A stretch of DNA of 10,321 bases from Nitrospirota bacterium. Lineage in GTDB: Bacteria > Nitrospirota_A > Leptospirillia > Leptospirillales > Leptospirillaceae. Location of the stretch: the NCBI GenBank assembly GCA_021795275.1, contig JAJYPO010000076.1, positions 1-10,321 on the forward strand, written 5' to 3'. Positions within the stretch are counted from its first letter, which is position 1. Each line of letters opens with the position of its first letter. Shown in pieces: positions 5,034 through 10,321 of the stretch. The position numbers and the translations under genes were made by a program. Under the pieces are notes generated by a model that was given only the letters and a program-made list of their open reading frames with translations, ran no database searches and had not been told where the DNA came from.

Positions 5034-6215
5034 CTAGACGTAGGTGGCGAAGGCTGTGAGCGCGCGATCGAGGGCCTTGTGCTTTTTGCGGAACTTCTCC
5101 AGGGGAACCCCCTGGGACCAGGCTTCCCAAGATTGCCGGATGGATTGACCTCCGGCCCTGGCTCCATCGGGATGGCCGCAGACCCCTCCTCCGCATAGGT
5201 AGGCGAAGTCGGGGCCGAAAAGATCGGCATGGACCCCCAGGGTGCCCGCGTGCATTCCCCCGCCTACGGCGACCAGCGAAGACTTCATCTCCCCCATCGG
5301 GGTTCGGCATATCTCTCGAACCGTTTTAAGGTCCGATTTTTTCGCCTTGAGGGTGCCCTTGAGCGCCGGATAAAGAATGAGGTCCGATCCCAGAATCCGC
5401 ATGAACCGGGTCCAGGCGCGAACCGACATGCCATGCGTTTGCCATAGCCAGTCGCTTGTGGCCATGTGCGCCATGATCGGGACCTGGGAGTGGCGCGCAA
5501 GCTCTTCCAGCATGGGGAATCCGCTCGCGGCCGGAGAGAGCATGGCAATTTTTGCTCCCGTCCGGGCTCCTTTAAGATAGCGGTCTATCATGTTCTGGGG
5601 CCGGTCCACGGTGTGCATCATGACCCACTTGGGCTCCCCCGTCTCGGCTTCGGCCCGGCGTGCGGCATCAACCGTTGCCTCGAGCCTTTTGATATAATCA
5701 GCCTCCGGCTCCTGCAGAAGCTCATCTGATTTGACGACATCCATTCCTCCGACAAGACTTTCGTAGGCGATGGTCGCATACTCCTTGGGCGTCAGCCCCT
5801 GGGAGGGCTTCAGGACGGTGATAAAGAGAGGACGCTTCGGATTCCCGCGCCTTGCCGCGATGCCCTCCTCGCCGAATTGGGGTCCTGGGAGTCTTGAAAG
5901 AAGAGCGGGAGAGGGTTCAAAGTCGGTGAGCTCGATCGACTTAAGGATGTTGAGGCAGCTGATTTCTCCTGCGATGGAAAGCACGAGTCCATAGGCCGAG
6001 GAGATCCGTTGGGAAGGGACCATGATCTCCACCCGGGCGTATTTTTTACCCTCCTCGACTTTGAGCGGCTTTGCCGCGAAGCTCTCTGTCCCGGCTGTTT
6101 CGTAAGCCGTTTTCTTGACCCCCAGACTCATTTCCCGGGCGATCAGGGCGGCTGCCCTGGGAACGTCATTGGATCGGATCGTATAGGTGGTCCTGATGAT
6201 CTCAGGTTTGCTCAT
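5034..6215 (-). CDS. RuBisCO-like protein (form IV, probably AMC group)
   Basis: Large-subunit RuBisCO homologue of 393 aa, shorter than true large subunits (about 450-480). By-eye alignment shows conserved metal and carbamate residues: K136 (spinach K175), K162 (K201, the carbamylated lysine), D164 and E165 in the VVKSDE stretch, H250 (H294), and the phosphate-binding CGGGVCGHPDG at 341-351. Several substrate residues are changed: K177 to S138, R295 to M251, H327 to Y282, S379 to G318, N123 to E84. Loop 6 is Lys-rich but does not match the GK of RuBisCO. Carboxylation is therefore unlikely; known form IV proteins catalyse enolisation or isomerisation of sulfur-containing or sugar phosphates. 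The pattern recalls the acid-mine-consortium clade, of unknown function. ATG at 6213-6215 was chosen because AGAGGA lies about 8 bases upstream on the coding strand; 36 further upstream codons look like leader sequence. It is divergent from the flavin reductase gene. Confidence 0.88.
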   Translation of the reverse strand: MSKPEIIRTTYTIRSNDVPRAAALIAREMSLGVKKTAYETAGTESFAAKPLKVEEGKKYARVEIMVPSQRISSAYGLVLSIAGEISCLNILKSIELTDFEPSPALLSRLPGPQFGEEGIAARRGNPKRPLFITVLKPSQGLTPKEYATIAYESLVGGMDVVKSDELLQEPEADYIKRLEATVDAARRAEAETGEPKWVMMHTVDRPQNMIDRYLKGARTGAKIAMLSPAASGFPMLEELARHSQVPIMAHMATSDWLWQTHGMSVRAWTRFMRILGSDLILYPALKGTLKAKKSDLKTVREICRTPMGEMKSSLVAVGGGMHAGTLGVHADLFGPDFAYLCGGGVCGHPDGARAGGQSIRQSWEAWSQGVPLEKFRKKHKALDRALTAFATYV

Positions 6216-7144: not shown

Positions 7145-8857
7145 ATGGACAAGACCGACCCTTTCAGCCGAAAGAAAAACGACTCCGAAAAAAACGGTGA
7201 CAAAAAAGAAAGCGCCGTGACGGAACCCTTCTCAGAGCTGGTCATTGCCATGGAGCGTCTGATTCGCCTTCTTGATGGCAAGGAAGAGGAGATGCGGGAA
7301 GCTTATCGGATCAGGAAAAAGCTTCAGGAGTTTGAAAACGAATGGCAACGGATGCAACATGAGGCGACGCGGCTTTCGGACGTCCTTGAAAAGGTCACGA
7401 AGCCGGCATTCCGGATCGGGACCTGTCTCGGAACCACGGACGACGGGCTGGCCTGGGTTTCAGTCGGCGGTGGCGATTACCAGGCCACGGTCGACCCCAG
7501 GGTTTCTCTCGAATCGCTTAAAAAGGGCGAGCGCGTCCGACTCAATGAAGCCCTTTCCATTCTGGGAACGGTCGGACCCGACCTTTCCGGTCCGATCGTG
7601 CGTGTCGGCCGCCTCCTTCCTGACGGACGACTCGAGATCGGCTCGGATCGTCCGGACAATACGCTGGGAACGATACTCGACAGGTCAGATCTTCTGAAGA
7701 ATGAACTGCTCTCGACGGGTGATTTTGTTCGCCTCGATAGTACCTCCCGCGTGGCGGTGGAGAAGGTGCGCAAGCGGGAGGAAAGCTACCTTCTGGCCGA
7801 GGTTCCGACAATCGGATGGGAATCGATCGGTGGTCAGGAGGAGGCGATCCGGGAAATTCAGAAGGCCATTCTCAATCCCGTCCTGTATCCTGAAGCCTAT
7901 GCCCGGTACGATTTCAAGTCTCCGCGGGGATTTCTTCTTTATGGTCCGCCAGGATGCGGAAAAACCCTGATCGGAAAGGCGACGGCCCGTGAAATCGCCA
8001 ATCGCCTGGCCCGGAAAGAGGGACGAGCCGTCAAGGGGGTCTTTTTCCATATCAAGGGACCCGAAATTCTGAATATGTGGCTGGGAGAATCCGAGCGCAT
8101 TGTCCGTGAGCTTTTTGAGGAAGGCGAAAAGATCAGGAAGAGCGGCGATTTTCCCGTCCTCTTCATCGATGAGGCCGAGGCCATTCTCGGCACCCGGCGG
8201 AATGGTCGGGGTTTCAGTATTCACAATACGATCGTGCCTATGTTTTGCGCGGAACTCGACGGCCTTGCCGGTCCGGCCGGTTTTCAGATGGTGATTCTGG
8301 CGACCAATCGTCCGGAGATGATTGATCCTGCGATTCTGCGGCCGGGTCGCGTTGACCGGAAGATCAAGGTCAAGCGTCCAACCTTCGAGTCTGCGATTGA
8401 GATTCTGAGGATTCACTTGGGGGCGGATGTTCCGGTTCGTTCAGCTTCTGCCGGACACGACGTCTCCCAAGATCGGGAAGCGCTGCTCGAGTCATTCAGG
8501 GACAGATTCTTTGCCGGAACGGACGAAAATGCCGTATTCGAGATTTTGCGCCGATCTGGCAAGCGAATGCCGGTCTATCGGGCGGACTTGGCCAGCGGGG
8601 CCATTCTTGAGTCAATTACGCTTCGCGCAAAGGAGAGGGCCCTTTTGCGTGAAATAGAAAGCGGTGAGGGGGGAGTTAGCCTCGACGATCTCCTCTGGGC
8701 TGCCCAATGTGAGTATGAGGAAGGGGACATCCTTCCGCCTGCGGAGATTGCCCTCGAGTGGATGAGTCTCCTGGATATCGATACCCAGGATGTGGTCGAT
8801 GTCAGAAAGATCCGCCCGGCAACGGGGGCTGCCAGAAATCTCAGGACGATCGAATAG
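7145..8857 (+). CDS. arc: Proteasome-associated AAA+ ATPase ARC/Mpa
   Basis: Hexameric ring ATPase that recognises Pup-tagged proteins through an N-terminal coiled coil, unfolds them, and threads them into the 20S proteasome (570 aa; mycobacterial Mpa is about 609). Visible in order: a charged N-terminal tail; a coiled coil around 44-85; the tandem OB region about 87-215; Walker A GPPGCGKT at 267-274; pore-loop segment KGPEILNMWLGESE at 304-317; Walker B VLFIDE at 338-343; sensor ATN at 386-388; and arginine-finger region RPGRVDR at 399-405. The pore loop reads Trp-Leu-Gly where mycobacterial Mpa has Phe-Val-Gly. The C-terminus ends LRTIE, without the Gln-Tyr-Leu ending that docks Mpa on the 20S core; no frame near the stop restores it. 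ATG at 7145 has GAGGA (7131-7135) at 9 bases. Dop follows 35 bp downstream, almost certainly in the same transcript, which makes ARC/Mpa much more likely than a generic Cdc48- or FtsH-type ATPase. Confidence 0.92.
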   Translation: MDKTDPFSRKKNDSEKNGDKKESAVTEPFSELVIAMERLIRLLDGKEEEMREAYRIRKKLQEFENEWQRMQHEATRLSDVLEKVTKPAFRIGTCLGTTDDGLAWVSVGGGDYQATVDPRVSLESLKKGERVRLNEALSILGTVGPDLSGPIVRVGRLLPDGRLEIGSDRPDNTLGTILDRSDLLKNELLSTGDFVRLDSTSRVAVEKVRKREESYLLAEVPTIGWESIGGQEEAIREIQKAILNPVLYPEAYARYDFKSPRGFLLYGPPGCGKTLIGKATAREIANRLARKEGRAVKGVFFHIKGPEILNMWLGESERIVRELFEEGEKIRKSGDFPVLFIDEAEAILGTRRNGRGFSIHNTIVPMFCAELDGLAGPAGFQMVILATNRPEMIDPAILRPGRVDRKIKVKRPTFESAIEILRIHLGADVPVRSASAGHDVSQDREALLESFRDRFFAGTDENAVFEILRRSGKRMPVYRADLASGAILESITLRAKERALLREIESGEGGVSLDDLLWAAQCEYEEGDILPPAEIALEWMSLLDIDTQDVVDVRKIRPATGAARNLRTIE

Positions 8858-8892
8858 AGGGAATTTTGCCGGAAACGAAGGAATTGAAGGAG

Positions 8893-10321
8893 ATGCCCCT
8901 CACTCCAAGTCGGATCGTAGTCGGAATCGAGACGGAATTCGGGATCATACGAAAGGATCTCGAGGCCTCCGATCCGGTTCGTGAGTCGATGGATCTTGTC
9001 AGGGCCTATCGTCCCCACTCCTTTGGGGCATGGGCTTATGAAGCCGAAGATCCTCGTGCCGACGCAAGGGGTTTTCGGGTGGATCGACTCGCTCAGGACG
9101 AAGAAGAGGAGGCCTTTTCCCGTTCGGACCAACAGCGTCATTTTTCCTTCAGGGAATCGAAAAGCGACAGGATTCTTCAGAACGGGGCCCGTTTTTACAA
9201 CGACCATACCCATCCGGAATATTCCACTCCCGAATGTCTGACATTGCGGGACCTGATCCTGTACGACCGGGCTGGTACGGAAATTATCAGGCAGGCCGTC
9301 AAGTCACGGGAAGAGGAACTTGCTTGCCCCGGTTCCATGGGCCTCTATCGGAACAACACGGACTTCCATGGCCACAGCTACGGGTGTCATGAAAATTACC
9401 TGCTTCCGAGGCGCCTCCCTTTCGGAAGCCTTGTGGAGGGAGTGACACCCTTTCTGGTGGCCCGGACCCTTCTTCTCGGAGCAGGCAAGGTCGGAAGGGA
9501 AGGGGACGACGGTTTTTCCCGGGAGGGGTATCAGCTTTCCCAGAGAGCCGATTTCATTGAGGAGCGGATTGGGGTCAACACGATGCACCATCGCCCCATC
9601 GTCAACAGTCGTGACGAGCCTCACGCCGATCGTACCCGTTATCGCAGGCTGCACCTGATCTGCGGGGATGCGAACATGTCCGAGTGGCAGACTGCGATGA
9701 AGGTGGGGATGACCCGCCTCGTTCTTTCGGCCGTTGCAACCCTTCCCCGGGAGAGCTTTCCTGTCTTGGCCGATCCGGTACGCGCTTTTCGGCTTGTGTC
9801 ACGATCGGAAAACGGAAATATCCCGCTGGAGCTCGATGGAGGGAAAAAGCTCACACCCAAGGAGCTTCTCCTCATCTACCGGGATCTGTGCTCGGGACTT
9901 CGGCTGGACTTTGAAGATGGCTGGGTCATGTCGGAGTGGGGCCGTGCCATTGAGGACTATGAAAAGGATCCGGAGCTGTTGAGCGACCGCGTTGACTGGG
10001 TCGCCAAGCGTCAGTTGCTGGAGCTTTTTCGGAGCGAGGAAGCGCTGTCCTCCGATGATCCCTGGCTTCAAAGCCTTGATCTCGCCTATCATGACCTGGA
10101 CCAGGATCTGGGAATGTTCTGGTCCCTTGAATCGGACGGTCGGATGATGCGGTTGACCGACCCCAGAGAGGTGAAGGTCGCTGCGATCGTTCCGCCGAAC
10201 ATGGGACGGGCCCCTGTCCGGGCGGCCGTCCTTCGCCGGTATGAAAAAGAGATTCGCGATGCAGGATGGGAACGCATCGCTTTTGTCGATGGCAGCTATA
10301 TCGATCTTCCCCTTTTCGTGA
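8893..10321 (+). CDS. dop: Pup deamidase/depupylase Dop (3' end outside window)
   Basis: Glutamine-synthetase-like enzyme that converts the C-terminal Gln of Pup to Glu and removes Pup from tagged proteins. The frame is open for 476 codons to the right edge; Dop is about 500 aa, so only the last stretch is missing. Catalytic features: VGIETEFGI at 10-18 with metal-binding E13 and E15, and NDHTHPEYS at 103-111 where D104 matches the nucleophilic Asp of mycobacterial Dop. WAYEAEDPRADARGF at 47-61 matches the Dop-specific region that PafA lacks. Later motifs are SYGCHENYLL, SQRADFIE, NSRDEPHAD and CGDANM. DHxHPEYS and GDANM favour Dop; the Cys in SYGCHEN is the one PafA-like feature. ATG at 8893 fits the family N-terminus, with GAAGGA (8877-8882) 10 bases upstream. 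An in-frame TTG at 8866 with AGAGG 5 bases upstream is an alternative adding nine residues. A pup gene is expected downstream. Confidence 0.9.
   Translation, partial: MPLTPSRIVVGIETEFGIIRKDLEASDPVRESMDLVRAYRPHSFGAWAYEAEDPRADARGFRVDRLAQDEEEEAFSRSDQQRHFSFRESKSDRILQNGARFYNDHTHPEYSTPECLTLRDLILYDRAGTEIIRQAVKSREEELACPGSMGLYRNNTDFHGHSYGCHENYLLPRRLPFGSLVEGVTPFLVARTLLLGAGKVGREGDDGFSREGYQLSQRADFIEERIGVNTMHHRPIVNSRDEPHADRTRYRRLHLICGDANMSEWQTAMKVGMTRLVLSAVATLPRESFPVLADPVRAFRLVSRSENGNIPLELDGGKKLTPKELLLIYRDLCSGLRLDFEDGWVMSEWGRAIEDYEKDPELLSDRVDWVAKRQLLELFRSEEALSSDDPWLQSLDLAYHDLDQDLGMFWSLESDGRMMRLTDPREVKVAAIVPPNMGRAPVRAAVLRRYEKEIRDAGWERIAFVDGSYIDLPLFV

Follow-up and report, generated by a model that had tools for sequence, protein, structure and literature searches.

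Form IV of the RuBisCO family, the RuBisCO-like proteins (RLPs), comprises seven groups according to a review, one of which is IV-AMC (PMC10173188). In R. palustris, the DeepYkr RLP is an isomerase of methylthioribulose-1-P, and the Photo RLP is without known function (PMC5893883). Genome papers on Leptospirillum describe a non-carboxylating RuBisCO-like protein in cells that fix carbon otherwise (PMC2607301, PMC5418355), namely by the reductive TCA cycle (PMC5418355). A multi-omics study of the L. ferriphilum type strain reports one 'RubisCO', whose transcript counts are low but whose protein levels are comparable to those of the reductive TCA enzymes; its role is stated there as unknown (PMC5772234), and it may be either of the two RLPs described below (RLP-A or RLP-B). 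Moreover, a metagenome study proposes the RuBisCO-like genes of Leptospirillum as a possible sign of sulfur metabolism (PMC4438317).

Here, we analysed a stretch of 10,321 nucleotides from a Nitrospirota bacterium of the Leptospirillaceae (contig JAJYPO010000076.1; termed the window), which encodes an RLP that we call RLP-A. The gene and the codons of its predicted active site, read from the alignment described below, are:

5034..6215, minus strand: RLP-A, RuBisCO-like protein, 393 aa (PF00016, homologues, alignment, selection)
6114..6116, minus strand: codon of K34, at the position of spinach W66
5964..5966, minus strand: codon of E84, at the position of spinach N123 (E in all 22 clade rows)
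5808..5810, minus strand: codon of K136 (K175)
5721..5732, minus strand: codons of K162-S163-D164-E165, carbamylation and metal site (K201, D203, E204)
5466..5468, minus strand: codon of H250 (H294), followed by M251 at the R295 position
5184..5192, minus strand: codons of G342-G344, phosphate loop (G402-404)

The open reading frame (ORF) runs from an ATG at 6215 to 5034. A longer GTG frame extends up to 6323, but is probably not the true start, since 22 of the 24 closest homologues (P0002-P0025) are 391-393 aa long (P0022 has 395 and P0011 414). The assignment of the ORF to the RuBisCO-like proteins was confirmed by a match to PF00016 (E 2.1e-41, 142.5 bits) and by an AlphaFold model with the full RuBisCO fold (pLDDT 93.9). 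RLP-A is a genuine gene under strong purifying selection, with dN/dS values of 0.031-0.135 against nine relatives (dS is saturated for the distant ones). Six NCBIfam families are matched, none above its own cut-off. The top score is that of type III RuBisCO (175.4 bits vs a cut-off of 497.45); OiaX (134.8 vs 700 bits) and the MtnW equivalogs (155.5 vs 409 and 118.5 vs 513.6 bits) are missed as well, the MtnW cut-off alone being a weak test which RLP-B also fails. Foldseek searches with the model ranked form III chains first. Thus, judged by the top NCBIfam score and the Foldseek ranking, the kinship of RLP-A to true RuBisCO is not remote. Among PDB sequences there are 99 distinct matches at E<=1e-3, the best being the C. 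tepidum RLP (1tel/1ykw). A function cannot be read from the fold, since the top-scoring chains of MtnW, form III and Photo are too alike, within 2 Z units (48.0, 47.8 and 46.7).

Site residues were read from a 77-row alignment, of which 22 rows belong to the RLP-A clade, with spinach numbering for the reference positions. The original prediction of a preserved metal site holds: K136, K162, D164, E165 and H250 correspond to K175, K201, D203, E204 and H294, occur in all 22 clade rows and in other groups, and are invariant in 58 rows of alignment A1. The phosphate-loop glycines 342-344 (GGG; G402-404) are likewise kept, as are glycines 380 and 381. The substrate site, by contrast with this metal site, has been rebuilt as predicted, S138 replacing K177, M251 R295, E84 N123 and G318 S379. 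A tyrosine had also been proposed in place of H327; the histidine is indeed lost, but its partner is either L281 or, one column on, Y282, and a single one-column gap decides this as well as the exact partner of K334. Further positions differ, too: W66 corresponds to K34 (K in 17 clade rows, R in five), K334 to T288 (S in five clade rows), H298 to S254 and D202 to S163 (S in 16, T in four and P in two clade rows). These variants aside, each site state is identical across the 22 clade rows, several of which are close relatives. Because the same state recurs in all of them, the alignment indicates that the site changes are not the chance of one sequence. Nor does this sequence alignment, by which the possible return of the missing residues in a structural alignment was checked, restore any of them.

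Position 123 separates the groups. All clade rows have E there, as do 8 of 8 Photo rows and another Nitrospirota RLP (L059). K stands in 7 of 7 RLP-B rows and, among the other MtnW-side rows, in 14 of 15, whereas form I, form III and NP rows have N and OiaX rows have G. The lysine found here in the MtnW of G. kaustophilus is reportedly the catalytic base (Imker, 2007). We take E84 to match both Asn123 of RuBisCO and this residue, Lys98. A glutamate at position 84 suggests a different proton transfer rather than a loss of catalysis.

How do these residues compare with the described systems? Form III RuBisCO (2CWX, 3A12) shares with RLP-A the fold, K175, the metal site and the GGG loop, but RLP-A lacks K177, R295, H327, K334, S379 and N123. 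MtnW, the DK-MTP-1-P enolase (2ZVI, 2OEM, 4NAS), carries K at 123 and P at 295, where RLP-A has E84 and M251, and the OiaX/NonPhoto rows keep R295 and K334, where RLP-A has M251 and T288. By family, fold and lost carboxylase residues RLP-A is a RuBisCO-like protein (form IV), and its residues, as aligned, place it outside forms I-III.

A phylogenetic tree of the 77 rows was inferred by IQ-TREE; named form II, DeepYkr, GOS and A. fulgidus-type RLP rows are absent from it. The window type and its Nitrospirota relatives form one group of 22 rows (support 100/100, stem 1.33), whose named members are all Nitrospirota. The Photo rows (100/100, stem 1.47), the OiaX/NP rows (100/100) and six form I/III rows (100/99; one long branch) group without the RLP-A clade. 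The 22 MtnW-side rows, which include RLP-B from 7 of 13 loci, also split off at 100/100 without it, in line with the predicted position outside MtnW. Some rows were assigned to their groups after the tree: P0068 fell with MtnW and P0077 with OiaX, u_P0059 was placed in Photo, and other groups received several rows that had carried no label. Long branches are u_P0087 and MtnWlike_P0074, and N_L055 and N_P0034 are near-copies. AU tests in which the RLP-A clade was joined with Photo (p 0.392), OiaX/NP (0.177) or form I/III (0.106) reject none of these arrangements, so that the order of the clade relative to Photo, OiaX and I/III is open to all joint placements. A position within forms I-III, named beforehand as evidence against the prediction, is therefore only partly countered: the I/III rows stand apart from the clade, but their union with it is not rejected in a tree that holds no form II rows.

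The Photo group deserves particular attention, since RLP-A might be the Nitrospirota counterpart of these C. tepidum-type proteins and be involved in sulfur or oxidative stress. Its members (C. tepidum 1YKW/1TEL, R. palustris RLP2 2QYG) share with RLP-A the metal site, E at 123 and G at 379, the three best PDB sequence matches are all Photo RLPs, and of the five groups compared Photo is the only one whose majority residue agrees with the clade at E84, G318 and six more of its invariant positions; the joint clade, as noted, is not rejected by the AU test. However, all eight Photo rows have W66 (vs K/R), R334 (vs T/S), S381 and R403 (both vs G), none of which occurs in any of the 22 clade rows, identity to Photo is 27-31%, and the stems of both clades are long. 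Moreover, the effects seen in C. tepidum do not appear in R. palustris when its Photo RLP is missing (PMC5893883). We consider such a role quite improbable.

The 87 matches of the protein search, in which the 7997 candidates with the most shared words were scored, fall into three bands of identity: 64-92% (26 proteins, two of which are partial), 51-57% (30) and <=35% (31). The few named proteins in the two upper bands are from the Leptospirillum class or other Nitrospirota, those in the 51-57% band being from other Nitrospirota. Presumably the RLP-A clade is the IV-AMC group of acid mine consortia (Tabita, 2007), with which it shares the type of habitat and the standing of a separate RLP group. 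As a separate clade RLP-A is likelier than RLP-B to be IV-AMC. Thirteen loci in public genomes match RLP-A at 66-97% identity, 11 labelled Nitrospirae bacterium and two Leptospirillum sp. Among 395 sampled Nitrospirota genomes, 18 have matches to P0029 at E<=1e-60. Sixteen of these belong to the Leptospirillum class, and the other two are G362 (95% identical) and G180 (36%; elsewhere in the tree). That the RLP-A clade reaches into other Nitrospirota is new here. The G180 protein (L059:9545-10756), encoded after MoeA, is another Nitrospirota RLP, which combines E at position 123 with retained R295, H327, K334 and S379.

A second, distant RuBisCO-family protein of the same PF00016 family, RLP-B, is present in all 13 genomes first searched. 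In the seven cases compared, its aligned identity with RLP-A is 22-25%. Unlike RLP-A, it lies in a fixed gene order in 13 of 13 loci, as judged by ORF clusters: ARD, RLP-B, an MtnX-like HAD phosphatase and MtnB, the families having been named from two of these loci. The later part of the ARD protein matches PF03079, and MtnB scores above the NCBI cut-off; RLP-B and the MtnX-like protein fall short of theirs. RLP-B also differs from RLP-A by K at 123 and by a phosphate loop that reads GTG (T at G403), not GGG; L033:9036-10217 and its kin are the rows with this loop, despite the strict gene order. In 10 of the 13 loci the ARD gene is preceded by an ORF that clusters with a 151 aa ORF of L033, which has no Pfam match.

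Both RLPs were counted in the genomes of relatives. RLP-B occurs in 21 of 21 Leptospirillum-class genomes and RLP-A in 16 of 21. In the remaining five (G054, G094, G099, G101 and G104), whose assemblies may be incomplete, a direct search did not find RLP-A; the best match (~30%) lies at the place of RLP-B. In G031 both RLPs are on the same 2.56 Mb contig, which rules out bin mixing for this genome. As for the salvage genes, searches recovered MtnA from 16 of 18 genomes and from 15 of the 17 with a clade protein, MtnB from 22 of 23 (21 above cut-off) and ARD from 21 of 23, the two without an ARD match being G362 and G180. MtnC, of the other enolase route, was found in none of the 23, and one of the control genomes gave a match above cut-off.

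Judged by its gene context, RLP-B probably fills the post of methionine-salvage enolase, and the salvage route in the Leptospirillum class probably runs via RLP-B. RLP-A would therefore have another role. It is parted from the salvage enolase because the salvage genes sit with RLP-B and because G362, which has the clade protein, shows no ARD match. Nor is RLP-A linked to salvage genes itself, in contrast to MtnW: in 21 RLP-A loci of 4.9-21 kb there is no ARD, MtnX or MtnB homologue (MtnA was not among the queries). A place within MtnW together with a complete salvage operon was thus not seen, and the MtnW role was rejected for RLP-A, which lacks the Lys at the N123 position while RLP-B holds the salvage neighbours.

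A different link to the pathway would be a second salvage-type activity, in which RLP-A works as an isomerase like that of R. rubrum and takes its substrate from MtnA, for instance 5-(methylthio)ribulose-1-P or 5-deoxyribulose-1-P. A singly phosphorylated substrate would fit, and the MtnA counts in genomes with the clade protein agree with it. G362 has MtnA and an MtnB-like aldolase above the MtnB cut-off, but neither an ARD match nor RLP-B, and its clade protein could serve there. We regard this possibility as unlikely, however, since in the Leptospirillum class the RLP-B gene set already explains MtnA, and the 21 RLP-A loci, in which MtnA was not queried, lack ARD, MtnX and MtnB homologues. 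The R. palustris Photo RLP, which has the glutamate by its clade, gives a mixed picture: it had no detectable activity with 5-(methylthio)ribulose-1-P, whereas an earlier study had seen slow partial conversion (PMC5893883).

The gene order in the window is KamA-family radical SAM protein, BluB, dCTP deaminase, tRNA-Asn (the only RNA family detected), MFS transporter, RLP-A (which is on the minus strand), FAD/NAD(P) reductase, proteasomal ATPase and Dop-type protein. The last two (window 7145-10320; ARC-type ATPase, PF17758/PF16450, then a Dop-like Pup_ligase protein) constitute a Pup-proteasome locus, and most related loci have two ORFs in the cluster of the window's Dop-like protein. The MFS transporter and the FAD/NAD reductase flank RLP-A in the window and in the most closely related loci. 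Overall, RLP-A occurs in at least four different contexts: the window type (L001-L010), Leptospirillum types (L011-L013 and L056-L058), A' (L018-L020) and L055. No immediate neighbour is common to the four contexts, and an operon-based function was ruled out since the immediate neighbours differ between them. The Pfam scan of neighbours covered 20 proteins. PurU (formyltetrahydrofolate deformylase) adjoins RLP-A in L056 and L057 and is two ORFs off in L058; on the opposite side there is an EamA transporter. Two of the three A' loci (L019, L020) have IlvD immediately upstream. PurU and IlvD score above their own biosynthetic cut-offs and are taken as local, chance neighbours. The two short ORFs between PurU and the RLP in L058 (L058:10368-11395) include one with an IS605 OrfB helix-turn-helix domain. 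The A' loci carry a further RLP-A copy, 71-72% identical to that of the window (L018:164-1513, L019:7381-8739, L020:797-1978), on short contigs of three bins that also contain RLP-A; this could be a duplicate gene or a mixed bin.

From the sequence evidence, we consider it somewhat probable that RLP-A is an enolase or isomerase of the Mg/carbamyl-lysine type whose substrate is a keto compound with a single phosphate, and not the salvage enolase, which in these cells is most likely RLP-B. The Leptospirillum class and a few further Nitrospirota would thus have it as a metabolic enzyme that stands alone. K162, probably carbamylated, would bind Mg2+ together with D164 and E165, and the metal would hold the enediolate of a keto, sugar-like substrate whose presumed single phosphate rests on the GGG loop. 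With the R295 and H327 ligands lost, the second phosphate site is probably gone, for which reason RuBP would not be the substrate. E84 may move the proton, leading to enolization or keto-sugar isomerization. The earlier interpretation of an intact metal site beside a rebuilt substrate site, outside MtnW and separate from the form I/III rows, stands on these points, and its enolase- or isomerase-type reaction is retained as our proposal. What speaks against this best reading is that D202 is S/T/P and K334 absent, so the site may be changed beyond expectation.

That RLP-A has kept the fold and lost catalysis, to become a binding, storage or regulatory protein, appears very improbable. Its many changed substrate residues, the lack of a common immediate neighbour and its absence from 5 of 21 assemblies of the class would fit, but the metal-site residues and phosphate loop are invariant in 22 rows, selection is strong, and a binding role would not need K162. 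Returning to the preferred enzymatic role, we suggest tentatively, as a possibility short of probable, a RuBisCO-superfamily reaction that has yet to be described, with glutamate 123 as acid-base group and a basic residue at 66, in the core metabolism of iron-oxidizing relatives of Leptospirillum, beside a separate salvage RLP.

In summary, RLP-A is a member of the RLP superfamily from a clade without known function, and our literature search, within the parts of the sources available, found no experimental test of the protein. New here are the division of labour between RLP-A and RLP-B, one copy with salvage genes and the other free-standing, and, in the alignment, the glutamate at 123 common to the RLP-A clade and the Photo rows. 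The split of RLPs in Leptospirillum cells removes the usual methionine-salvage guess for the free-standing RLP-A, whose function is directly testable. Once found, its activity would probably bear on the Photo clade too, which has the same glutamate.
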